A stretch of DNA of 64,000 nucleotides from positions 11,902,278 to 11,966,277 of the forward strand of contig NC_134030.1 in assembly GCF_964204645.1 (NCBI RefSeq), given 5' to 3'. The DNA is from Tubulanus polymorphus (lineage: Eukaryota; Nemertea; Palaeonemertea; Tubulaniformes; Tubulanidae). Positions 1-15,000 of the stretch are shown here, one piece after another (the first letter of the stretch is position 1; each line of letters begins with the position of its first letter). The translations under genes were made by a program, and so were the position numbers. The notes under the pieces were generated by a model that saw only the letters and a program-made list of their open reading frames with translations, searched no databases and had not been told where the DNA came from.

Positions 1-1188
1 ATCATGCCACATGTGCAATACAGAGAAATGGCGGCCAATGGCGAAATTGGTGGAGAAATTAATTAATTTCTCAAAATAATGTTGACTAACCACTCGAAAC
101 ATACATAAAATTGGATTATTTCGAAAGGTACCTGTGTTAGTTTGTGAATTAAGCCATTAATTGTGGACTGAAGTGAATAGAAAGTATACTTTTGAAGTGT
201 TACTTTTTTCAACCGTGTTTTGGTCCTTGTCATCCCTAACGTTGGTATAAGCCCATCCGATTATAAAAAGCTTACCACCAACGATTAGGTAACTAACTAG
301 CCACCCCCCCCCCCCCCCCAGTGGATAGGTGACCCAAACCTGTAGTAAACTAGTAGTAGTATAGTTAGTTTTTAATCAATTCTAAATTATTAGAAACTTT
401 CTGCGTACCGTACCTAGAAACTGATTTTGTAAGAACTGGATTTTCCTGAAGCCAGTATGAATATTTACGTAGAATCACGTCCATCGTGGTTCCGTCCTGG
501 CCTTCTTTTTAATTAAAATTGCTTGGCATAGGCGCCTACAGTAGGCCTATTTCGCTGGTGAAGTAAGAACGAGAGAACCGTTCACTGACATGAGGCGTTG
601 ATTCCATTTATCGATTTATCACAACTACTAAAGTGGTTTCGAATCCCGCGACGGCGACCCTCGCAAATAAAATCTGGATCGGTAAAGTCAGTCACCGTGG
701 TGGTGGTGGTGGTGGGTAATTTTAAGCCTTGGGCACAAAAAGTGTCAACAGTCAAGCCAAGGCGCGTCATTAAACTTTCGTGTAGCCTACGTTTTCTTTT
801 TTTTTTTGAAGCGGCTCGCCTGCACGCCGTAGTTGATTGCAGGCACGATATTCAATAGGTGAAGGTAGTAAAAATGGTCTCGAATGCAATATTATTCATC
901 ATCCTTAACTGGCTCACGGAAGCCCTTAGCCTTAGGCTAGTAGGTAACATAGAGAAGAGAGAGGCCTACGCGATAATTTTTTTACAATTTCGACTTATTA
1001 TCTCGAAATTCAACAGAGGCTTATAAGTCGAATTTCGACTTAATAAGTCGAAAATTGTAAAAAGGGCTCCCGTCTTAGGCTCTTATAACATTTTTGGTTT
1101 TTAGGCGCGAGTGATTTTTCGGTGAGTGTTGCATGCAACGCATGAATGGTGCGCGTGCACACTTCCGGTGTGGAGAGCCGACCCCGTG
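1..1188. other. Left flank without a recognised gene
   Basis: I see no supported gene here. The stretch holds a homopolymeric C run at about 304-319, a short GTG microsatellite near 700-715, and an imperfect foldback at 979-1063. Short open frames on both strands lack recognisable motifs and look like chance. The last seven bases (1189-1195) are the left target duplication of the transposon that follows. Confidence 0.6.
979..1063. repeat. Foldback with ~22-bp arms
   Basis: The left arm (979-1000) and right arm (1041-1063) are reverse complements except for a one-base bulge, and enclose a 40-base spacer that itself contains partial inverted copies of the same TCGAAATT/AATTTCGA words. It may be a remnant of a small MITE or a template-switch product. 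No target duplication was found. Confidence 0.6.
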
Positions 1189-1195
1189 TATCAAA

Positions 1196-1240
1196 CGCAA
1201 AAGGTTGAAAGCCTGTTTTGGTCGATGGCGAGTGACGTCA
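1196..1240 (+). repeat. Left terminal inverted repeat of the Mutator-like element
   Basis: It begins CGCAAAAGGTTGAAAGCC and ends AGTGACGTCA. It is the reverse complement of 12915-12959 except for one G/T difference eleven bases from the inner end. The inner end contains TGACGTCA, a CRE/ATF-type palindrome. TATCAAA at 1189-1195 is the target duplication. Confidence 0.92.
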
Positions 1241-2280
1241 CTAGTACAAATTCCGAGCGGTTCGAATCCCACAATACGCCAAAATCACTACGGCCGCTCT
1301 GAGCGCACATCGCATTTCAACGTTGCCGTTTAATAATTGTAAAATAACTAATAATAGTTTAAGTTTTATAAGGGTTAGAAGTACATTGTATTTACTGCTA
1401 GTGTATGTATATATCATGTACGGTTGCGAGAAATCCCTGCCCTGGTTAAACAGTAAGTCCACTAAATCTTTAAATTTTAAGTTGTTTAATGAAACTATTA
1501 TTGTTTTAAATTGTTAAAACTGCAAACTATGGTTGTCGAAGATGCACCTTCTTCACATCCTTTGAAATCCTGGATAGCATCGCTGTCGGCAAAGACCTTC
1601 AGGTCTGTCTTCAACGGCACATCGCTTTGGAACAAGCGACTACTGTGTTATCAAATCTGAACTAGGTAAAAAAATGTTCCCCAAAAATAAAGACAAGTAA
1701 ACGGATTAATTTGAGGTTTGAATGTTTTTGTTTATTTGTTGGTTCAAATCGAACCCTCGTCATCCTGATCTCCATAAATCTAAGAAAAGTATTCGCACAC
1801 TTAAAACAATAAAATACGAGCAATAAGCAATAACATCAGACTGGAGTAAGTAACTTTACTTAATTCACAGATACAATCCTACACAAAACAATAGCTATTC
1901 AGTGGCGGATCCACCCCTCTATTTTTACCGATGTAGCCGCAAATCTATGCGTTACTGAGTAAAAACCGAATGAAATCTTTCTATTAAGTAATGCTCAGAA
2001 TGCACCTGCTTGCATCTATTTTTCCAAAAAATTTTTAGGAAGGGTCTTCGCGTTATCGGTGCTTGCTCTGGAATGGCTTACAGCCATCTGTTGTTGCTTT
2101 CATTTGCCCCCCCCCCTTCAAAATGCTGGATCCGCCCCTGAGTGCAGACAAAATGATCGACAAAGACATACAGAACTCTAAAACAACAGTTAACAATTTA
2201 AGCAACGATAGACAAAACAGATAGCTGATTACTTTACAAACCTGTTGTCAGAACCTTAATTATTTTTACATGTACATACA

Positions 2281-2815
2281 GAGGACTGTTAACAATTCAA
2301 CCAATGAAATTGCGATAGAGATACAGAACATACAGCTTTAACAGTAAACAATGCAACCAATGAAATTGCGATAGAGATACAGAACATACAGCTTTAACAG
2401 TAAACCATGCAACCAATGAATTGCGATTAACTAAGACCTACGAGCAATTATCAAGTTTGATAATTGCTCGTAGCTAAGACATACAGGACAAACAGGACTA
2501 ACTTAATTGCGATAGACATACAGGACATACAGGATTAACAGTAGACAATTCAACCAACGAATTGCGATTAACTAAGACATACAGGACTAAACCACAGGAC
2601 ATACAGGACTAACAGTAGACAATTCAACAACCAATGAATTGCGATTAACTAAGACATACAGGACATACAGGACTAACTTAATTGCGATAGACATACAGGA
2701 CTAACAGTAAACAATGCAACCAATGAATTGCGATCGCGATCACAAAGACATACAGGACAAACAGGAATAAACCACAGTAAATTGCGATAAAAAAGACATA
2801 CAGGACTAACTGCAA
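2281..2815. repeat. Degenerate ~60-bp tandem repeats
   Basis: Words such as CAATGAATTGCGATTAACTA and AAGACATACAGGAC recur about every 55-65 bp with insertions and deletions. The block lies in the 3' non-coding part of the transposon. Subterminal repeat arrays of this kind can serve as transposase binding sites in DNA transposons; here that role is an inference. Confidence 0.75.
2438..2473. repeat. Perfect 17-bp-arm palindrome with 2-nt loop
   Basis: CTACGAGCAATTATCAA is followed by GT and then its exact reverse complement. It sits inside the tandem repeat block between two copies of CTAAGAC, which fits a snap-back or template-switch event during replication. Confidence 0.9.
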
Positions 2816-3588
2816 TAAATATATAGGGCCTTAGGAATGCAAAATTCATTCATTTTGTCATTTGTAAACATTCCACAACTTATTTCATTATGTCATTTCC
2901 AGTTTTCAAAGGGAATTTTCTTAACTTCAGATGCCTCGAGGACATAAACATATAGAAAGATCTGTCCCAAAAAAATGTCAAGTGTCTTTCATAGTGCAAT
3001 GGGCCCTGGTTTCCACGTTTATATATCACATATAAAATTCTACAGAAACAATCAATGAATAAGTGAAAATTTACGAATAACAAACAAGACATTCAAGCAG
3101 TTGAGTAAGTTAAAATGGGACCAATCTATATATATTATATATGGATTATACAATTTAATCAGGGACAGCCTTGAACCGAGGTTGATGTGTCCATACACTC
3201 TCTTCATACACTCTCTGAACATGCATGTATGTATACTGCTGCCAATTGATGATAAGTCAAGGATGTTGAAGTTCTAGACATGGTCAGAATCATCCAGAGA
3301 CATCGGCACGCATCACAATAACTGATGATTTTGCAGTAACCTGTAACATAAAAAATCAAGCGGTAATCTATTCACAAAATATATTTTCCTGAAAGAAAAA
3401 ACCTGAAATAGAGCACTATAAACACCAGTGCATATACATCGCTTCTTAACCTTATATATAATCGAGTAAATATATAGGTGACTAAGTGACGGTCATTATA
3501 GGCTTCTACGTTCACCATGGGAAATGAAAATATTTCTAATGTCAGGGATTCATTCGAAACCCGATCAATAATATTCTATACAAACTAT

Positions 3589-6500
3589 TTAGGAAATCGG
3601 GTCACAATGAAAACAAAACCACCTGATATGTTCAGGAGGAGCCTCATTGATTGGAGCACATTTCCAATGATACCATCTATGGCAATTATCACATTCAATT
3701 GAGAATGTGGACTTTTTCTTAGGATTAGCATTGCATTTTTTGTGGCAGACAGGGCAGGTTTCAGCAACTAACTGAGAAGGGGTTTTTTCAACTTTTGATG
3801 ACAAAAGATTATCTAGTTTCAATTTTGCTAGGTTTTGGAGGCCTGCATTTCCAGGTTGATCTATAAGAATTTCTAATTCTTTTTCAGAATTGGAATTATT
3901 GATTTCTGTAATAGGAGAACTGTTGAGATAATCATCTCTATTATTATAATCGATTACAATAGATTTTTTCTTATGATGATTATGTTCAATACGAATGTGC
4001 TTTTGAAGGAATGTTTCACTTGCATATGAATTAATAACCCCATCTGCCCAACAAATAGCACATGAGATAGGTTTCAAAGATGAATGAGAAGTGGATATGT
4101 GCCTATCTAGTTCCCTGCGACATGAACAAAGATATGGAGGATTTATTTTGTCTTTAATACAAAAGGAACAGACAATACTTTTTTCAAATAAAACAGACTT
4201 CGAGTCATTTTTAACAACTGGTATTGACTTAATATCTTTTGGTTTGGTATCTTTTGATTTTTTTGGTAAGGATGATTTATTCTGACTTAAAATATCTGCT
4301 GAAAATTCGATATCATTGCCAGGATCTGGATCAGTGGAGTCTATGGTTTCAATTTCTGATATTTTAGCTTTTTTACCTAGTTTGATAGCAGCATTTTCAA
4401 CCATAGCAGAAAAGGATACACCTCTGTTAGCAGGTCTAATTATCTTTCGCCCTCCGTGTCTTGCATTCTCAGCATCTTTAGGCATTGTAACCTTAGGGCA
4501 GTAAGGGTCTATCACTTCAAGTTCAGGAAGGTTTATGGCAACCTGATTGTCCTTGATTGGACCCTCAGCACGCCTATGAGCCATATTGTGAGGTTGTCGT
4601 TTGGCAGGTCGTCCGCTTATTAACTTAATTCCACAGTGGCTTTCATTATGTAAAATACTTAGAATGTGCCCTTTCCGAGCAGCATTGATATCATTCGAGC
4701 TAGCAATGTGGGAATGATCTTTTAACTTATCAATGAGGGTAGATGAAACAGAAATATTTTGTCGAGTAAAATTGTAAGTTGGCAGAGGCTCCACAATGTG
4801 GAATTTATATGCATCAATTAAAGCCTTCGTTGTGGTTATATTGTTTTTTTGGGCAAAACAGGCAAAAAGATGTTTGCAAAAATATGGTTGTCCAATCATT
4901 ATAAAAGCTTCACAAGTACATATACCTAGTTTCAAATTGATTAAATGGCAATTACCATCTACGTATGAAAGACAATTTTCAGGAACGATTGTAATAACGT
5001 AATTGAATAAGATACGACTGGATATTGAATCTAAATTTCCTATGTACCTTCGGCATTTTTTTGAAATGTCATATGAATGTTCCTCGGATATTGATACTTT
5101 ATCGGGGAATCTTTCTTCTAAAACATCAAGCTGATTGAATGTATATTGAGTATCACCATTGAAAAAATTATCATTATCTTCTAACCTATTTAAGTTCTTT
5201 CGTGAAGAACTCTTCACAACAAACCAATTAGTTTCTTCATCATATTTTAAAATCTCATTATTCTGTAATAAATCAAAGGCTCTTTTGCAACACTTTTCTA
5301 TCTTTTCAAGGTGACGTATATTCTTAACTCGTTGGTCAAGTTGCTTAAATTGGAGATTGTTCATATTTGTCGCTTTGATCTCATCATTAAAAACATTTTC
5401 AAACAGTAATCGTACAAAAGATGATATCAGTTTATTTAGGTGTCCACTTAAGTAGACATCATCTATTTGTTTGAATTTGCGCTCAGTAATATTATCAGTT
5501 AATAGCAAAGGGTTATTTCTGTTAGATTGGTCTGACTGATAAATTGATTCAGCATTGAATGCCCCAGACCAAATTTGGGAATTAAACCAATTCTTCTTTA
5601 GGTAATCAATAAATAATGTTTTTGTATCTTGCGACATAAGGTCTAAAGAAATATCATTCTCAATAAAACTAATAAATGAATTGGCTATATCAGTTCTAGA
5701 GGAAGCATCCCATGATCTCATAATGCATTTGAAACCAGTTTCTAGAGGCTTGCAAAATAAGCGAAGTTCTTGATTTTCATTCATGAAGCGACGAATACAC
5801 TGCAGGACATGAAAATTACATAGTACTGATTTAAGATTATTGTCAGATGCTCCTTGCTTTAGACTTGCATCTTTATCATGTTGTACAAAAGGACAAAATC
5901 TAGATGTTGATGAACATGGCTTGATTCTGAAAAAACCATTGCCATCATTAAATATATAGAATTCAGATGGATGATTACATTTTTCGTCTTTACATGGTGT
6001 ATTGGCTAGAACTAACTGGATGGTAGTTGCATGAGTAGCCCCCCCTTCATCACTACTAATTGATGCAGCAGCAATACGTCCTTCATTTTTGTTGTCTGCA
6101 AAAGTTACAAATGAAGTTTTGAATTTCCACGAATTGAAATCATGTTTCACGTCAATACCAATGACAGATTGTCCAAAGTTGGATAAATGTTCCAGAGAAC
6201 GAGGATCAGAGAGAATAATGTGATAATTACGTTTGAGTGTGGCATCCCCTCGTTGAAATAAAAGGACAGATTCATAGTTACCCTCTAATAATTTTTCAGT
6301 ATTTCTCCAATCAGAACTTAGAATAGGTATTTCGTCTTGAGATTTCATATGTAATTTTATCGAAGATTTATCAATATATTTCAATCTATTTGAAATTTGA
6401 TCTAGGGTATGGTCATGACCGGCGCCATCATTTACATTTGATACATGAAGGTTATTGTGAGCATTGGTGGCAGAAAGAACCTTCATTGCTGTGGCTTTCA

Positions 6501-9325
6501 TCATGACTCTATTTTCATCCCATCTATCTCTAGTAGATAAATTAGGTCGCTTTTTAATTTGTAAAGGAATATTGTCATGATATTGACCATTAAGTGGTTT
6601 GCTGAAGATTCTCCACTTGGATAAATCAGTACTAAATAATACAAGTTTCGTTGCCCAATAACACATAAAATGAGGGTGAATTAATTTTTTTGGCTCAAAC
6701 TGCTGCCTTAACTTCACAGGACGATCACGTTTATTCTTCAGCTTATAGTTGTAACAGTTGGAACAAAGTGTTTCACCATCAGCATTTTTCCTCCATTTGT
6801 TAGACATGGTAATGGAGCAATGAATACATTGTTTATCATTTAAAACAACGTCAATTTGACATGAGGGACAATTAGTGATGTTACTGGACATATTCAACTT
6901 TGAAAGATAATATCCACATGATGATTTACAAACTGAAGACTTTGACGAACATTTTATGAGCATTTCTGCAGCCACAAATTGAGAAGTATCCTCAACAATT
7001 GGCTCAATAAATTCAAATTTATTATCTAATCTATGGGTTTGCCAATTCTTTTTTAATGTTAAGGAAGCTTTCATCGTTGTCTGGTTACCAACAAATGAAG
7101 GCCGCACATTCTTATGCAGACGAACTGTTTTTGTAAAATCAAAAGTGAATCTATCGAAATAATATTTTGTGTCAGCACCAGTCATTACTTCCCCATTTTC
7201 AACCCATTCATCACTAAGTGGATTCTGGTTGTTGAGGTATTTCTTGATAGTGTCAATGGCTACCTGGTCATTTGTACCTTGGTCTGTACAATGAAAACTT
7301 TTATACTTCGTCTTACTGCCAGTTGAATGAAAAGCAACTTCAAGATAATGCTTTCCTCTCCTGATGCGATGGGAGATAGTAGTTTTAGAACCATTAATAT
7401 GGGAAGTTAATGGTTCAGCTGAATTTAGAGTTAATGAGGATTGAGGATTCAAAATTGAGGATGTAGATTCAGGTGTAGATTCATTATTCGAAATTGGTGT
7501 AGATTCAGGTGTAGATTTAATAGTCAAAATTGGTGCAGATTCACTATTCGAAATTGGTGTAGATTCATTAGTCAAAATTGGTGCAGATTCACTATTCGAA
7601 ATTGGTGTTGATTCAGGTGTTGATTCATTAGTCAAAATTGGTGCAGATTCACTATTTGAAATTGGTGTTGATTCATTAGTCAAAATTGCTGCAGATTCAT
7701 AATTCGAAATTGGTGTAGATTCAAGTGTTGATTCATTATTCAAAATTGGTGTAGATTTAGATTTGGCTGTAGTTAAGACTGATTTGCTTTTTTTAGGGGC
7801 AATATAAGAGTCTGACATCTTTAATTCAGAACTAGCTAGTGTATTATTTGACTCAGTTGATCGTTTATGTCTCTGTCTGCGAGATAATCGTGATATCTTA
7901 GAGAAAGTAGTACTATTAGCAGTAGGTTGAGATGACTTTGAGAAGAGTTGAGTAATATCAATTAGATGTTTCATAAGCCAATTAATCAATATCAATCTAA
8001 CAAAATCAGAATAGTTAGAAATGTTCTTAAGATAAGATAATTCATTGGGAGATGAAAATACACTTGAAATATCCTTTTCATAATAGGTTGCAATGCAAGC
8101 ACCAATTAATGTAGCAGGGCCACAGACAGATGAACATGATTGGAGTGGGTAATAACTAGTACAATTATTACTACATACATGCACTGAATTTTCAGTAACA
8201 AAATGAGGATCATGGAGGTGGATATAAACAGGATCAGGGCAATTCAAACCTTTCAAAACAGATCTTAAATGATTTTTAAATTCCCTTGGACAATCCCATG
8301 CTAGTGTATCAGCATAACACAGTTTGTTACTTTTTGGGTAAAAAACTGCTAGTGCATAATGATTGGCAACAACATGTCCATAAGAATTTAGAAATACGAA
8401 ATCGTTTTGGGTGCCAACATGCAGGAAAAAAATTAGTTTATCACAACTTATGAGTGGATTAGGACCGAATCTTTTATATAAATTTGAAACATATTTCTTA
8501 GCATCAAATGTAAGTGGCATCATAAATGCATGAATATTACAGTACTGTTCATTTATCATAGATGCAAAAGCATTTAACACAGATCCTTCAAACCATTTTT
8601 GATTAGTCATCGTCTGAAGTTCTGATACAGATACGCTATTATTATTACCAACTGGAAATTGTTGAGAGGGTTTTAAGGAAAAGAGCATATTTGAAAATGC
8701 TTGAATCTGTTCCCAATCGACTGAATCAGTGGGGCTTAAAGGCTTACTATTTACCCAAAGATTCATGGCAAAAAGATCTTGTTGTTTGGTTTTAGCATAA
8801 TGTAAGAAAAGAAACCTATTAATCTGATCAATAGAATAGCAGCCTGTATCGAGTCTCACATGGATATTAATGGAAGGGTCACGGACAATCCTTGACTGCA
8901 TCTGTGCTTTTATGTCCTCCAACTGATTTTTGTGGGGCATAGTGGGGGCATCATCAGCCAAATGACATGAATTAGACATGTCACAAATTCTGAATGACGT
9001 GACCTTTGATGGCATAACAGGAGGAATTTTCAAAAACTGATAGTCATTGAGGCACATTTCTGTTGGATTGTAACTAAAATTTCTTCTACATACATGTTCA
9101 TCATCAGAATCATTCTCATCACTATCATCAATTATGATTGGTTCGATACCTCCACCACCTGTGATACTTAGCTGTTTTTTGTTTTCCATCCAGCTATCTT
9201 CCTGCATCTTTAATCTTTCTATCCTTTCTTTCGAACTATCTTCCTGCATCTTTTCTGCTTCCTCTATCGTTCCTTCCGAGAAATTGTCACAAGCCGCGTC
9301 CTTTCCTTCTTCCTCCATTGTCCGC
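3589..9325 (-). CDS. Last exon: Ulp1 protease, DDE transposase, SWIM and PHD modules
   Basis: A 5737-nt exon with no internal stop. The upstream frame reads AT|G across the junction from exon 11, and the acceptor TTTCAG precedes 9325. An internal ATG at 9318 could also act as a start if the upstream exons are skipped, giving a protein beginning MEEEGKD. The Ulp1 module shows HYALAVFY, CYADTLAW and CGPATLIG blocks, matching the His-Asp-Cys order of C48 peptidases. The DDE core shows IGIDV, HDKDASL, CNFHV and TERKFK blocks in the MULE order. The SWIM block CTCEAF...CKHLF follows. The C-terminal PHD finger has the full C4HC3 pattern. The coding sequence is AT-rich like its surroundings. Confidence 0.95.
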
Positions 9326-12300
9326 CTGAAATACACATTATCAACTCACTTTTTTTAGACATATGAATAGATAGAGTATGAAATTACCCATATAGGCCTA
9401 ACATAAAACATGGGTATCTCTGAGTCATTTGCATTAAGTCATTTAGATTTGTAGGTACTAAATTAATTGAATTATGTTGTACTTACATTTCAGTATGGTT
9501 TAAACTAACATGGTCTAGAAGATCTTTCCAATTGGTGAATTCAACTCCGCAAAAACATGTCGAGTCAGCAGGATCCGTCTGTGGATGAATAACCTAATGT
9601 GGAAGAGCACATTAATCTGTTTTTGCTTCAACATCTAAGCAAAAATAACAAAAATGAACCCGCGTCTCGCAGAAAGGGCATCAAACTTACATGTTCCACT
9701 GACTTCCTTTTTCTGTTAAATCTTTTAGTATTGTGACAACTTCTATTGTAGCATCCCTGAATATGAAAACAAAGCTTTACAGCATAAATCATACCAATAC
9801 CAATGAATTTCTATAATTTCATTTCGAGAAACATATTACTCACGTTCTTAGTCTGATAAAAAGGAGTAAATAATTGAGGCTTTAAACAAATAGCAACACC
9901 AGCCACATCAATTTTAGTCATGTACTGGAAAAAAAAGACAGATTTGTGCATGCACAGCCTTTAGGTAATTGTGAAATAAAAGTGACCAAACTAATATTAA
10001 ATCATAAGTTCTTGAGATGATATGTACCTGGTCGAATGTGAAAAAGGCTCTTTGATCTTCACAACAGAATTGTTTCCTTGTATGATGCGCAACGTCAAAA
10101 CTGCTATACTGGATTGAAGGATACAAAAAACTGTTAAAATATATCTAACTTTATAAAGATAAATCACGTACAAATCACTTAGGAAAACAACTTTACCACT
10201 ATTGTTGAATCATCCCATGCTCTTGCTTGATCATCCTTCAATTTGTTTTTTGCTATCAGCTATCAATATGATTCATTAATTCAATGCAAGGATTTTGAAT
10301 AAAGTGGTTTCGTATTCAAGTTATAAAAACTAATTGCAAATCATTCATTTTCTAGGATATCAATGCTAAATGATTACCTTTCGTCGATGGACTGCTCTAC
10401 TTCTTTGCATCTTTTCAATCTCATATGGAAAGTATTGAGGGCACCTGATTAAGAATCATTCATTATTTCCAGTACAATCATAAAATTTATGTAGTTTGCA
10501 TACCTGGTAATTGGATAAAATAATGCAATTCTACGTACATTTCATCTTCATTTTTCAATAGCAGTAGTTCCATTATCCTGTTATTTATGAACTGATTTCC
10601 CTTACGGCTGGGGTGTAACAAGTCAGTCCTAGATCACAAAATTTAGAAAAAAACAAGTTAGTTTAAATCGCGAAAAAATGCACATAACCTACTGGGCTTA
10701 TTAAGATTAAACGATTACTTACGGTGAAAGGAGATCTCTTGAGAAGTGAAAATCAACGAACTTTACACCAAGTGTAAAGCATTCGCGGTGCAGCATTTCA
10801 TTGTAATGAAATATTTTTGTGTCAGCATCGAAACTTTAAAAAAGAAAGAAATTTAAAAATCATTACATCGATCATAAATATAGTACTTCAAGAAAAATCT
10901 ATTCTTGATACTTACTCATCACATCGAGGAAAAAGAGCTGGTACAATGATGGTCCCAGTACATTTATAGAGCAACAATCGAATTAATTCAACGTGTCTTC
11001 GCAGAACAATCTCAAGCGGGACATCACGCGTCATATTATTTGTTCCAACATGGACGATTAGTTGTTCCACATTCAGCATCTTCACCTTTTTCAATTCTGT
11101 AATATACAACTAATCAGTAACCCAATGAAAATGAACAATATAAATCAGTACTGAACCGAGAAATTACCTTCCATCAATGTTTCAATGGTTCCTCCGGGGC
11201 ACACGATCCTTGTCCATTCAAATAAGCCTACACCATCTAGCCCAGCATACTTTAAAATGCTGTCTGCTACGAGACCAATACGCTACAAAAAAGATTATTT
11301 GTCAGTCTCAGGCCAATATCACAGGGAGGTGTGAGAGAGCACACTGGTTACTGTAAGACCCTACTACATGCAAAAGAAGTGACACATATATGTATATCAA
11401 TGTGATAGAATTGATTGAAAAAATTGTGCATAATAGTAGCTAGTGCCCAAAAATAGAACACAGTGTTATTGAAGTGAAAATTTCTAAAATCCTCTGAAGC
11501 GGTGCTTATTTGGTAGCTACATGGGTATTCTAATTGAATAAGCATAAAGATAAGCGTGCACACACAGTAGCCTATGCATAAACAAGGGCCAGTTTCACCT
11601 TCACCTAAAAGTCCTGCAGTGTGAAGACTAACTTGTTCACCTAAACCACCTCTACCAGGCTGTGGAAGGCCTAACATCAGGCACTAAATTAAAAGATTCC
11701 TCTAAATCAAATTATCTATAAACATCCTCTTAATTGCAGGCAGACTGATTCAGGGAGGGGTGCAGCCCAAAATAGGGCATACATATCAGTATCATATATA
11801 ATTAAAAATCAAAAGGGCACCAGATCATCAGAAAACATAATACCTATATTTTGGAAGTAGGCCTACAGAGAACATGTTTTGGAATATAAGCTTTTTAAAA
11901 ATACTTGTTGATATTTTTAATTTTTCCTTTAAATTTCATTGCGACTTAAAAGTTTTAAGGGGTGTACACCCCTGTATACTCTCCTGATCTGCCCCTGAAT
12001 TGCCACTTAACAAAATTTCTCAGCTTAATTGTTGGCTAACTAGCTCAGTGAAACTGGGACCAGACCTAATGCATACACCCTCAGTGGCCAGGGCCAGGAT
12101 TAAACAGTTAGGCTACGTATATAAATAAAGGAATGAAAAGTACTTATCCTGAAATTGGTTAGGCTATCTATCTGCAACAAGAAATACATTTTCATTGACT
12201 CTGAATACAGGGAACTACCATTCTTCTGTTTCGAGGCCTTAAAATTTATTGTTTATTTTTTGTTGCTGGATTTGGAATGGTTGTTGGAATATTTAAGGCC

Positions 12301-12795
12301 TAGTAGGTGGTGACTGTGTACGGGCAACATAGGCCTATACCCAGTGGCATGGCAATGGCATGCCACTGGGTACCCACTACTGCACTATAGTATACTGCCT
12401 ACGGCTACTGCGACTGGTGGTTCGGTTGGCAGAAATTACTTTTTAACATGGGGGGGGGAGGGGGGAAGTAAGCGTGGATGAAGACAAATTAATTTAGCCG
12501 AGTAAGTAGCAAGCAAGTAAAGTAGTGGCAGTACAGTAGGCCTAGCGACAATGTGAGTGTGGTGGTAACGTGGCCGTGGTGGCAATAACAAGACTCCAAA
12601 ACTGGCAAAAGCCAAAATTAAAAAGCCCTGCCGCCGCGCGGTCGCGACGCCTCGCCTGCACCACCGTGTACGATCCTCGCGGCGTTCACCAGTGTTACCC
12701 AGTGAGTTTTTTATAATCTTGCAATCTACCTCTTTTTTCAAACCAATATTCCCACCAACTGGTCCGGAGACAAGCTTAACACGTTCGGAAAACAT
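3589..12795 (-). CDS. Twelve-exon SGNH hydrolase / Ulp1 protease / Mutator-like transposase / SWIM / PHD fusion protein
   Basis: Exons on the minus strand: 12795-12730, 11282-11168, 11096-10916, 10833-10723, 10628-10539, 10444-10378, 10259-10197, 10108-10028, 9924-9844, 9756-9691, 9593-9487 and 9325-3589. Every intron is GT-AG and the phases close to exactly 2255 codons including the TAA stop. Domains: SGNH hydrolase (Ser30, Gly53, Asn80, Asp160-x2-His163); C2H2-like finger (320-340); Ulp1/C48 protease (His665, Asp682, Cys744); Ser/Thr-rich repeats (~865-972); GATA-like finger (~1176-1201); MULE-type DDE core (Asp1401, Asp1493, C-x2-H, Glu1624); SWIM finger C-x-C...C-x-H (1812-1828); two C2H2-like fingers (~2062-2135); PHD finger (~2200-2250). 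The transposase and SWIM finger are expected of Mutator elements. The lipase-like and SUMO-protease-like domains are additions of unknown role. Exon 1 is the weakest part: it is chosen because GAG|GTAGAT keeps phase. Confidence 0.85.
7441..7760 (-). repeat. In-frame coding tandem repeat (NESTPIS / NSESAPIL type)
   Basis: About ten imperfect copies of a 13-17-residue Ser/Thr/Glu/Pro-rich motif lie between the protease and the zinc-finger/transposase half. The DNA units alternate GGTGTAGATTCA and GGTGCAGATTCA words. Probably an unstructured linker prone to length change; it is PEST-like in composition. Confidence 0.85.
10539..11282 (-). CDS. SGNH/GDSL hydrolase domain exons (2-5) of the fusion gene
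   Basis: Exons 2 to 5 encode an SGNH hydrolase. Block I is VADSIL (usual GDS, here ADS, nucleophile serine kept), block II is CPGGTIETL (oxyanion glycine), block III is VHVGTNN (oxyanion asparagine), and block V is DLLHPSRKG (catalytic Asp and His). All four signature residues are present although the domain is split by three introns. SGNH enzymes hydrolyse esters, but the substrate cannot be read from sequence. Esterase-like SGNH domains are known in ORF1 of some CR1-type retrotransposons; one fused to a DNA transposase is not something I recognise. Confidence 0.85.
11283..12729 (-). other. First intron of the fusion gene
   Basis: A 1.45-kb inferred intron. It contains chance open frames, a CCCC-rich tract near 12450 (reading on plus as a G run), and no protein motif. 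If exon 1 is wrong, part of this stretch would instead be 5' UTR or another first exon. Confidence 0.45.
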
Positions 12796-12914
12796 GATTC
12801 ACAATCTTTTAATCAACAGCCAGCAAGAATACACTTGACAGAAAATTCAAATTCAGCGGTTAACCGTTAAAAGTGAGTTGTTTAGCTGTGGGAGTAACAA
12901 AAAGGCGATCTTGA

Positions 12915-12959
12915 TGACGTCACTAGCCATCGACCAAAACAGGCTTTCAACCTTTTGCG
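12915..12959 (-). repeat. Right terminal inverted repeat of the Mutator-like element
   Basis: Partner of the left TIR, reading CGCAAAAGGTTGAAAGCC from its outer end on the minus strand. TATCAAA follows directly at 12960-12966. The inferred gene start (12795) lies about 120 bp inside, so this TIR probably holds or adjoins the promoter; the TGACGTCA palindrome at its inner end is a plausible activator site. Confidence 0.92.
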
Positions 12960-12966
12960 TATCAAA

Positions 12967-15000
12967 CCGTATCAGGCGCGCGGTTTCGCAGTCAGTCCAG
13001 CGTGGTGAGAGCGCCTCGACAACCTAAAGGTCAGTGGTATATAGATAGGAGCGGCCCGCGCCCCCATTAATTTTTGCCAAGATAACATTTCCAGGGCCAT
13101 TTTGAAAATGATATGGCCAACCCGTCGGAACCCTGTACCGGCTGTACGTAGTCGTAGTCGTAGACGTAAGTGTAGCGTTTCTCTCCTGGGTAGCGTGTTT
13201 CTTTTTAGTGTTGGATACGTAAAATAGGCGTTTGCTACTAGGGTTCGCCCTGAAACAATATAATCGGGTTATACGAAAATATTGGGGGAAGTAATTCCTC
13301 CTCAGGGAAAAGATACATTATGAGAATGCCGGTTTGCTAGCGTATCTATTTAACACCCGTATTGCTCGGGTTAGTTTTACTATCAACGGGTGGCGCTGTA
13401 TGTAAATTTCACATAAATCAACGACTTTCGGCTATTGGCGGTACTTAAGACCACTTGAAAACATCATAGTCAATTACGGTAGTAGTGAACATAAAAAGAT
13501 ACAGTACAAAGATACAGTACGGTGTACAGTTAAGGACATGATTCCATAGGACCCATACCAGAGACATTTTGTTCAGACAAGGACTATTAGTTAAACACTA
13601 ATCTTCATTTTCAGCAATTAACGATCTGGTGAATTAATTAGTGATTCGGTCTTTCGTCGGTTCGAGATAAAATGCCCGCAAAATAAGAACCTAACGAACC
13701 AGGGCTGACCATAAATTGCCCAACAGATAAATTTTCGAAACGACACAATCCAATCATGTTTGGTAACAAATGTGGCGTGGACCATGGTCTTTTAACTGAC
13801 CAATGCATGACCAGTACTGACCATATAGTAAATTATTTGTTTGCAAACAATTAAGTTGTTTGGTGTCAAATAACTAGATATGATGTGGGCATTAATCTAA
13901 AACTTGTTTTGACCAATGCTTGACCAGTACTGACCAGTTACCAGTGCTAACCAGAACCCCCATAAGTAATTTATATGTTTAGTGAATCCTTCGTTGGTAC
14001 TACTAGCTCTTACATTTAAATGTGTCGCTTGAAAAAGTCTTGTCCGATTTTTGTTGTATGTAGCGAGCTAACTTTGAAATTCCGCTAAAATGCATGATTT
14101 TTACGTAGGGTTTTGAACGAACAACGTTTCCATTTGTAATTGTAACGTGCGCATTTGAGCCTGTAACGTGCACATTTCACTCGCATGAACGTGCGTATCG
14201 GTACCAACATGCGAGACTTGTCAAACTTTTACGATCAAGACTTTCAAACTGAACAAAGAAGATATCATATCATATTATAAATACATGAATAGATGGAATG
14301 ATAATGTAGTAGTTTTAAATGTTTCGTAGCTGCTGTCCACTGACCACAGATCAAAGCTAATTGCCTGATATGAAATACATTTTTGTTATAGAGATGTAGT
14401 AGATCAGTGAGAATTCAAACTTATGGTTAATTTTGAGTGATCACAACGCTAACCAATAGAGAAAGCTAAGGCCTAAGAAAAGATGCATTAAGTATAACAT
14501 ATCTTTCAATATAATGATGAAGTATTCAACTGGCCATCACAACAATAGTTTGACTTATCTTATTGAAAAAACCGGAGTGTTAATGGGAAAACCTTGAATT
14601 CGAAACAATTCCACACTCATCGTTTACTTTGAAAACACAATTTGCATTTTGTGGACATGTATTTTTTTCTGCACCAAAAGCATGAAGTATATTATCTTTG
14701 CTTGTAAAAATTTGAAATTTTGGGGAAGATTTTTGGCCTCGTTAACCTGTGAACACGTCCTTCGTATATTTTCTAAGACCGACCCTTGAAATAATGCTGA
14801 GAGTTCCGAGGATAATTTTGGTAGGATGTAAACTTAGGCTGCTTCGTATCCGTGGAGGGTTGCTAATACACAATAATCATAAGTACCATGAGATTCGATA
14901 GAATATCGTTTTTCAATCATACGTACACGAATTATCGCGATATAAAGATAAATAATATGTTCATATACTTTTTACGTCTTATACTGTATATTTCTTTAGT
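12967..15000. other. No gene seen; GACCAGTACTGACC repeats
   Basis: No coding motif is visible. Around 13780-13970 the words TGACCAGTACTGACCA and CTGACCAATGC recur several times. Their reverse complements (GGTCAGT..., ATTGGTCAG) recur at 18040-18400, so the two clusters may be the subterminal repeats of one large decayed element. No clear TIR or target duplication was found. Confidence 0.5.

Follow-up and report, generated by a model that had tools for sequence, protein, structure and literature searches.

A 64,000-nucleotide stretch of the genome of the palaeonemertean Tubulanus polymorphus (NCBI RefSeq assembly GCF_964204645.1, contig NC_134030.1, positions 11,902,278 to 11,966,277 of the forward strand; the window from here on) contains a complete DNA transposon of 11,762 bp at window positions 1197-12958. 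We think it probable, at roughly 0.78, that this is an autonomous and recently active cut-and-paste transposon standing near Rehavkus, with one predicted spliced gene whose product of about 2,250 residues would run from an SGNH hydrolase module through a C48 (Ulp1/SENP-like) protease module and a DDE transposase core to a PHD finger. The element and its copies are called family A below, and a divergent relative family B; contigs of the 267.8-Mb genome are numbered with a C, and the window lies on C6.

The ends of the element are formed by two imperfect 44-bp terminal inverted repeats (TIRs) with one mismatch, flanked by a 9-bp target-site duplication, and a minisatellite precedes the 3' TIR, as follows.

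1188..1196, no strand: left target-site duplication GTATCAAAC, 9 bp, from the end-pair test; base 1196 is variable among copies
1197..1240, plus strand: left TIR, 44 bp, on the 3' side of the gene, including the palindrome TGACGTCA
2291..2664, no strand: minisatellite located between the stop codon and the 3' TIR, two Tandem Repeats Finder (TRF) arrays with periods 56 and 77
12915..12958, minus strand: right TIR, 44 bp, on the 5' side of the gene, including the palindrome TGACGTCA
12959..12967, no strand: right target-site duplication GTATCAAAC, 9 bp, from the end-pair test

A search of the genome for the TIR pattern gave 63 places, and a reversed control gave 0. From these places, 31 loci with 32 TIR ends were taken and gave 10 end pairs spanning 2.1 to 17.3 kb. 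The 9-bp duplication was exact in 8 of the 10 pairs, with no pair matching at 7, 8, 10 or 11 bp, and mispaired flanks used as a control matched at 9 bp in 0 of 90 cases; one of the two non-exact pairs has 3 of 9 bases mismatched and the other is shifted by one base. The initial annotation of this DNA had described 45-bp TIRs and a 7-bp duplication. Inverted repeats are indeed present at both ends, with one base differing over 45 positions, but their true length is 44 bp: C1196 lies outside the TIR and was assigned to the target duplication because this base varies between copies. The duplication, on the other hand, had been misjudged, being 9 bp long with no end pair that matches at 7. The palindrome shared by both TIRs is the consensus of CREB/ATF-type factors.

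Family A looks recently mobile because several intact copies are identical or nearly so. In a large-frame genome search, in which 25 of the 778 first-look candidates were scored, the whole 1,918-aa frame of the gene was open at seven places, the window copy included. Two of the other copies show 0 differences from the window copy over 5,754 nt, and the other four intact-frame copies differ from it at 7 or 8 positions. The remaining family A copies are decayed or shortened, and in the N-terminal part of a diverged one (L036) 5 of 655 exonic sites differ, compared with 21 of 861 intronic sites. The earlier proposal was to fall if no other copy shared both TIR and domain order. This refutation fails, since the TIR lies at the 63 places mentioned above and the full frame is kept at seven, counting that of the window.

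A separate observation concerns four shortened derivatives, of about 6.9 and 5.7 kb (C3:6469429-6476293, C3:19918258-19925121, C11:12983882-12990748 and C6:22713137-22718868), which match the SGNH exons and the C-terminal part of the transposase and show no C48 match. A 299-aa open frame, known from the matches alone, is reported by both the SGNH and the transposase matches and may be an in-frame fusion without C48 and DDE.

On the minus strand, the 1,918-aa open frame was confirmed, and 12 predicted exons joined across 11 GT-AG introns close in phase to 2,253 residues with no stop. This agrees with the 12-exon gene of the initial annotation, whose 2,254 residues fit if the stop is counted. 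The predicted exons, and the regions recognized within the last of them, are listed here.

12730..12795, minus strand: exon 1 with the predicted start codon, placed by phase and splice sites and by a nucleophile distance like that of the relative
11168..11282, minus strand: exon 2, SGNH blocks I (A-D-S) and II (G)
10916..11096, minus strand: exon 3, SGNH block III (GTNN)
10723..10833, minus strand: exon 4, SGNH
10504..10628, minus strand: exon 5, SGNH block V (D-L-L-H)
10378..10444, minus strand: exon 6
10197..10221, minus strand: exon 7, 25 nt, weak acceptor, the least certain internal exon, placed by phase and splice sites
10028..10108, minus strand: exon 8
9844..9924, minus strand: exon 9
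9691..9756, minus strand: exon 10
9487..9593, minus strand: exon 11, finger-like, with a similar exon and phase-2 intron at the same place in the relative
3592..9325, minus strand: exon 12, containing C48, linker, GATA finger, DDE core, SWIM, C2H2 pair and PHD; stop codon at 3589-3591
7936..9000, minus strand: C48 (Ulp1/SENP-like) region with H 8361-8359, D, Q and C 8124-8122, from Foldseek and invariant residues
7472..7757, no strand: in-frame 108-bp repeat, a Ser/Thr-rich linker between C48 and the GATA finger
6718..6828, minus strand: GATA-type zinc finger; two-family profile against PDB GATA factors, E 4e-6; Pfam 17.7 bits, cut-off 26.8
5482..6153, minus strand: DDE core with D 6153-6151, D 5877-5875, C-x2-H between the second D and the E, and E 5484-5482
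4870..4920, minus strand: SWIM-type motif C-x-C-x11-C-x-H, invariant between A and B; no Pfam match
3982..4170, minus strand: two C2H2-like fingers, motif by eye, with C/H columns invariant between A and B
3604..3756, minus strand: PHD finger, Pfam PF00628 at 24.1 bits (cut-off 24); 28.5 bits in relative B

The weakest parts of the model are exon 1 and the 25-nt exon 7, whose acceptor was picked by phase. Given exon 1, the SGNH serine would be residue 30, as compared to residue 27 in relative B. Inspection by eye of the open frames listed along with the 1,918-aa one showed none that looked like a reverse transcriptase, a retroelement origin having had no dedicated search.

The relative B, located on C6 at 15.72-15.73 Mb, carries a 1,787-aa frame that is 44% identical to that of the window, and its own gene model, built from splice sites and phases, has 9 exons on the same strand and gives 2,181 aa without a stop. 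The order SGNH, finger-like exon, C48, GATA finger, DDE core, SWIM, C2H2 and PHD is common to both families; the finger-like exon is followed by a phase-2 intron in each, leading directly to the C48 exon in A and via one extra short exon in B. In a second family B copy, on C7, SGNH likewise precedes C48 and transposase on the same strand, and relative B carries, on the side where the window element has its minisatellite, a tandem array of period 74 or 114 that extends over at least 1.28 kb. Non-synonymous differences between A and B are fewer than synonymous ones in all five parts counted, synonymous change being saturated in three of the five, including SGNH; the proportions of non-synonymous and synonymous differences (pN/pS) are 0.335/0.725 for GATA-MULE-SWIM (MULE, Mutator-like element), 0.454/0.682 for C48 and 0.514/0.793 for SGNH. 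Furthermore, SGNH matches were found upstream of C48 on the same strand at loci on C10, C4, C7 (9.33 Mb) and C1, known from matches alone; at C4 and C10 they also lie upstream of transposase matches, and at C7:9329217-9331901 an SGNH match of 57% identity is followed by two tandem C48 matches. These loci came from a search with exon 3 in which all 30 candidates were scored and which missed family B, so that absence elsewhere means little. The proposal that this is a complete transposon family in which SGNH and C48 travel with the transposase is thus upheld by the order shared with the relative and by the matches at further loci. In one scan of viral contigs no relative was found.

The modules were identified by different means. 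SGNH passes the cut-off of Pfam PF13472 (32.9 bits) in both families, with 36.7 bits in A and 38.4 bits in B (an early, incomplete exon set of B gave 14.6 bits, below the cut-off, and the full splice-site set 38.4), and the S, G, N, D and H positions, read by eye, are present in both. The N-terminal part of A gave three matches in the PDB with E from 0.009 to 0.058: two are entries for Oskar, and the third is a protein encoded by an ORF1 (4c1b). In the case of C48, the residues H, D, Q and C of catalytic type are invariant between A and B, the best match of a two-family profile against PDB sequences was Ulp1 (E 0.2), and Foldseek on a low-confidence model gave 366 PDB matches at E<=10, three of them at E<=0.001. 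Among the best 50 of these 366, 46 are SENP, NEDP1, Ulp1, a chlamydial deubiquitinase (DUB) or other proteases that we take to belong to the CE clan, and the other four are three RavZ and one Lem17. By these Foldseek matches and the invariant His-Asp-Gln-Cys, the module appears to be a SENP/Ulp1-type protease-like domain. The D, D, E and C-x2-H (CNFH) of the core and the SWIM motif, all assigned by motif alone, are invariant between A and B. The domain signatures with key residues that had been read from the sequence therefore stand on different grounds: SGNH and PHD by Pfam, GATA by the PDB, C48 by structure comparison, and DDE and SWIM by motif only. The profile searches that had been recommended likewise had a mixed outcome, with SGNH and PHD above their cut-offs, GATA below its own, and the MULE, SWIM and C48 families unmatched at E<=10. 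A Corona_NS1 Pfam match of 15 residues, below its cut-off, was set aside as chance.

Several observations weigh against the interpretation given above. The usual Gly of G-D-S is absent from SGNH block I, which reads A-D-S in A and S-D-S in B, so SGNH activity is not assured. The window PHD finger clears its Pfam cut-off by 0.1 bit. The Pfam C48 profile gave no match at E<=10, the AlphaFold model of C48 is poor (mean predicted local distance difference test, pLDDT, 46.7), and in the best 50 Foldseek rows E is at least 6e-4 and the query TM-scores at most 0.32. No Pfam MULE or SWIM family matched at E<=10; a genome-wide search with PF10551 found 108 places at this threshold, none at any listed A or B copy, and AlphaFold gave a model of the transposase that, with a pLDDT of 30, is of no use. 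The similarity of the finger-like exon of B to exon 11 of A is modest, its score being reached by 18 of 2,000 shuffles; an unrelated stretch within the B region exceeds that score by one point, and a MAFFT global alignment does not pair the two exons. Because of this modest similarity the placement of the B exon leans also on its position and on the phase-2 intron. As for the TIRs of family B, no inverted repeat was found between the outer 2.6 kb of each side of a 12.1-kb region, and one of the searches returned just two matches, of 14 bases to the minisatellite unit and of 13 bases. The weakest three exon-3 matches have E values of 0.0013 (C4), 0.0018 (C10) and 0.13 (C1), the C4 match lies 14 kb upstream, and there is no transposase match at C7 (9.33 Mb) or C1. 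Finally, amino-acid-changing and silent codon differences number 52 to 24 and 34 to 9 in the decayed A copies L028 and L030, a pattern as expected of dead copies that lends no support to selection.

One alternative, which we think unlikely, is that the transposon holds a pair of neighbouring genes, one for SGNH and the finger and another, starting independently, for C48 and the transposase. An in-frame ATG is indeed found close to where exon 12 begins in A and to where the frame begins in B, and reading through the donor behind the finger-like exon meets an immediate stop in both families, so that intron retention would give a short SGNH protein. Against this, the predicted exons of A and those of B each join into one stop-free frame, and in both families a finger-like exon and a phase-2 intron stand between SGNH and C48, an argument that is weaker than firm homology would be. 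As the similarity of the finger-like exons is modest, the two-gene explanation gains slightly and that of a single protein loses slightly.

The single-protein transposon is best placed near Rehavkus, at the edge of the Mutator superfamily; the literature on this and on the modules is cited below from excerpts. The Mutator superfamily is defined by a target duplication of 8-11 bp (PMC6446971), and the element has one of 9 bp, together with TIRs, a DDE triad recognized by motif and a C/D-x2-H motif, the latter being common to hAT, P, MuDR, Kolobok and Dada (PMC9587614); a PF10551 match is what it lacks. The label Mutator-like, already used in the initial annotation, is then inferred from the 9-bp duplication and the motifs: these and the TIRs fit it, but the Pfam MULE model fails to detect the core. 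Rehavkus is described as an outgroup of the MULEs with a 9-bp duplication, TIRs of 26-400 bp, one open reading frame (ORF), a PHD finger and a minisatellite before the 3' TIR (PMC6446971). Compared by description only, our element resembles these arthropod and annelid transposons in its 9-bp duplication, TIR length, single gene, PHD finger (present in A and B) and minisatellite before the 3' TIR (present in A; in B the array is present and the TIR was not found). Rehavkus-1_TC, at 9.5 kb, is likewise large, and differs in having tandem repeats inside its inverted termini (PMC10218199). The main text of PMC6446971 has 0 occurrences of the terms SGNH, GDSL, Ulp1 and protease; this does not prove their absence from Rehavkus.

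We regard it as rather improbable that the element represents its own superfamily-level lineage, sister to MULE plus Rehavkus. The core is missed by the MULE model though the same search finds the 108 genome places at E<=10, which would suit such a lineage; set against this, the 9-bp duplication, C-x2-H, SWIM, PHD and 3' minisatellite fit the Mutator/Rehavkus pattern. Many of these 108 places exceed the cut-off, indicating that ordinary MULEs coexist in this genome with the SGNH-C48-transposase lineage.

It is very unlikely that SGNH was picked up recently and is carried along without a function, in the manner of Pack-MULEs. Mutator elements often acquire fragments of host genes (PMC6446971), but the location of SGNH is common to A and B, its S, G, N, D and H residues are kept, its non-synonymous change is lower than its saturated synonymous change, and C48 is preceded by SGNH matches at further loci too.

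A Ulp1 domain occurs in some KDZ (Zisupton/Kyakuja/Dileera) elements. That the present element is a KDZ transposon instead of a Mutator relative is nevertheless hardly credible: such elements may carry accessory genes such as TET/JBP (PMC12730594), but their duplications are of 8 bp in Zisupton and Dileera and 7 bp in Kyakuja according to the same paper, as opposed to 9 bp here, and no KDZ-named family appeared in the Pfam results at E<=1 or E<=10.

Returning to the Rehavkus-like transposon with a single long protein, part of its domain combination has precedents. A Ulp1 domain together with a Mutator transposase has been reported in hydra, lancelet and plants, and Ulp1 and PHD domains have been aligned among Ginger1 and Mutator proteins (PMC2836005). 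Those elements have in common with ours the Ulp1-type protease and the Mutator transposase, whereas ours has in addition an N-terminal SGNH, a GATA finger and a core beyond the Pfam MULE model. SGNH/GDSL esterases are found in ORF1 of CR1/L2/RTEX (PMC3905857), in long terminal repeat (LTR) elements of bdelloid rotifers (PMC5408684), in terminons (PMC6431247) and beside Helitrons in the fish texim-Helitron case (PMC4021074). All these carriers are retroelements or rolling-circle elements, whereas here SGNH would be fused upstream of a DDE transposase in an element with TIRs. Among the papers listed by our literature searches, covering titles and the beginnings of abstracts with Repbase outside the search, none reports a fusion of SGNH with a DDE transposase; the term SGNH has 0 occurrences in the main text of a MULE survey (PMC13359780), and two reviews that mention it once cite the Helitron case. 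The initial annotation had held the whole combination to be undescribed. The SGNH fusion alone looks so, Ulp1 in Mutator elements having already been reported (PMC2836005).

In the mechanism that we propose, the DDE core would cut and join DNA with a 9-bp stagger, the fingers and SWIM would bind the TIRs, and the PHD and GATA modules would read chromatin or DNA. C48 may free the transposase complex, or host proteins of silencing or repair, from SUMO or a similar modifier; alternatively, it may cleave the long protein itself. By analogy with the SGNH esterases of CR1/L2, the SGNH module could remove an acyl or acetyl group or bind lipid, and this role is the least certain step; in the case of the ZfL2-1 esterase a role at membranes has been proposed, and no deacetylation of histones was detected (PMC3905857). 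A more far-reaching idea, which we put forward tentatively and consider doubtful, is that the element belongs to a separate, old DDE lineage deeper than any MULE clade, in which SGNH, a SUMO/ubiquitin-like protease and the transposase are obligate in one protein and the element depends on the esterase for transposing or for evading silencing. If true, this would be without precedent among cut-and-paste DNA transposons.

Elsewhere in the window, between 25 and 60 kb, we also observed several frames that, as judged by eye, resemble Copia, piggyBac, Gypsy and Penelope types.

Retroelements unrelated to one another repeatedly carry SGNH esterases, whose role there has been proposed and is not settled. 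The presence of a predicted SGNH-DDE fusion in two families whose main frames are 44% identical suggests that this module may help mobile DNA independently of an RNA particle, and the element of T. polymorphus offers a young, intact system in which the role of SGNH can be tested.

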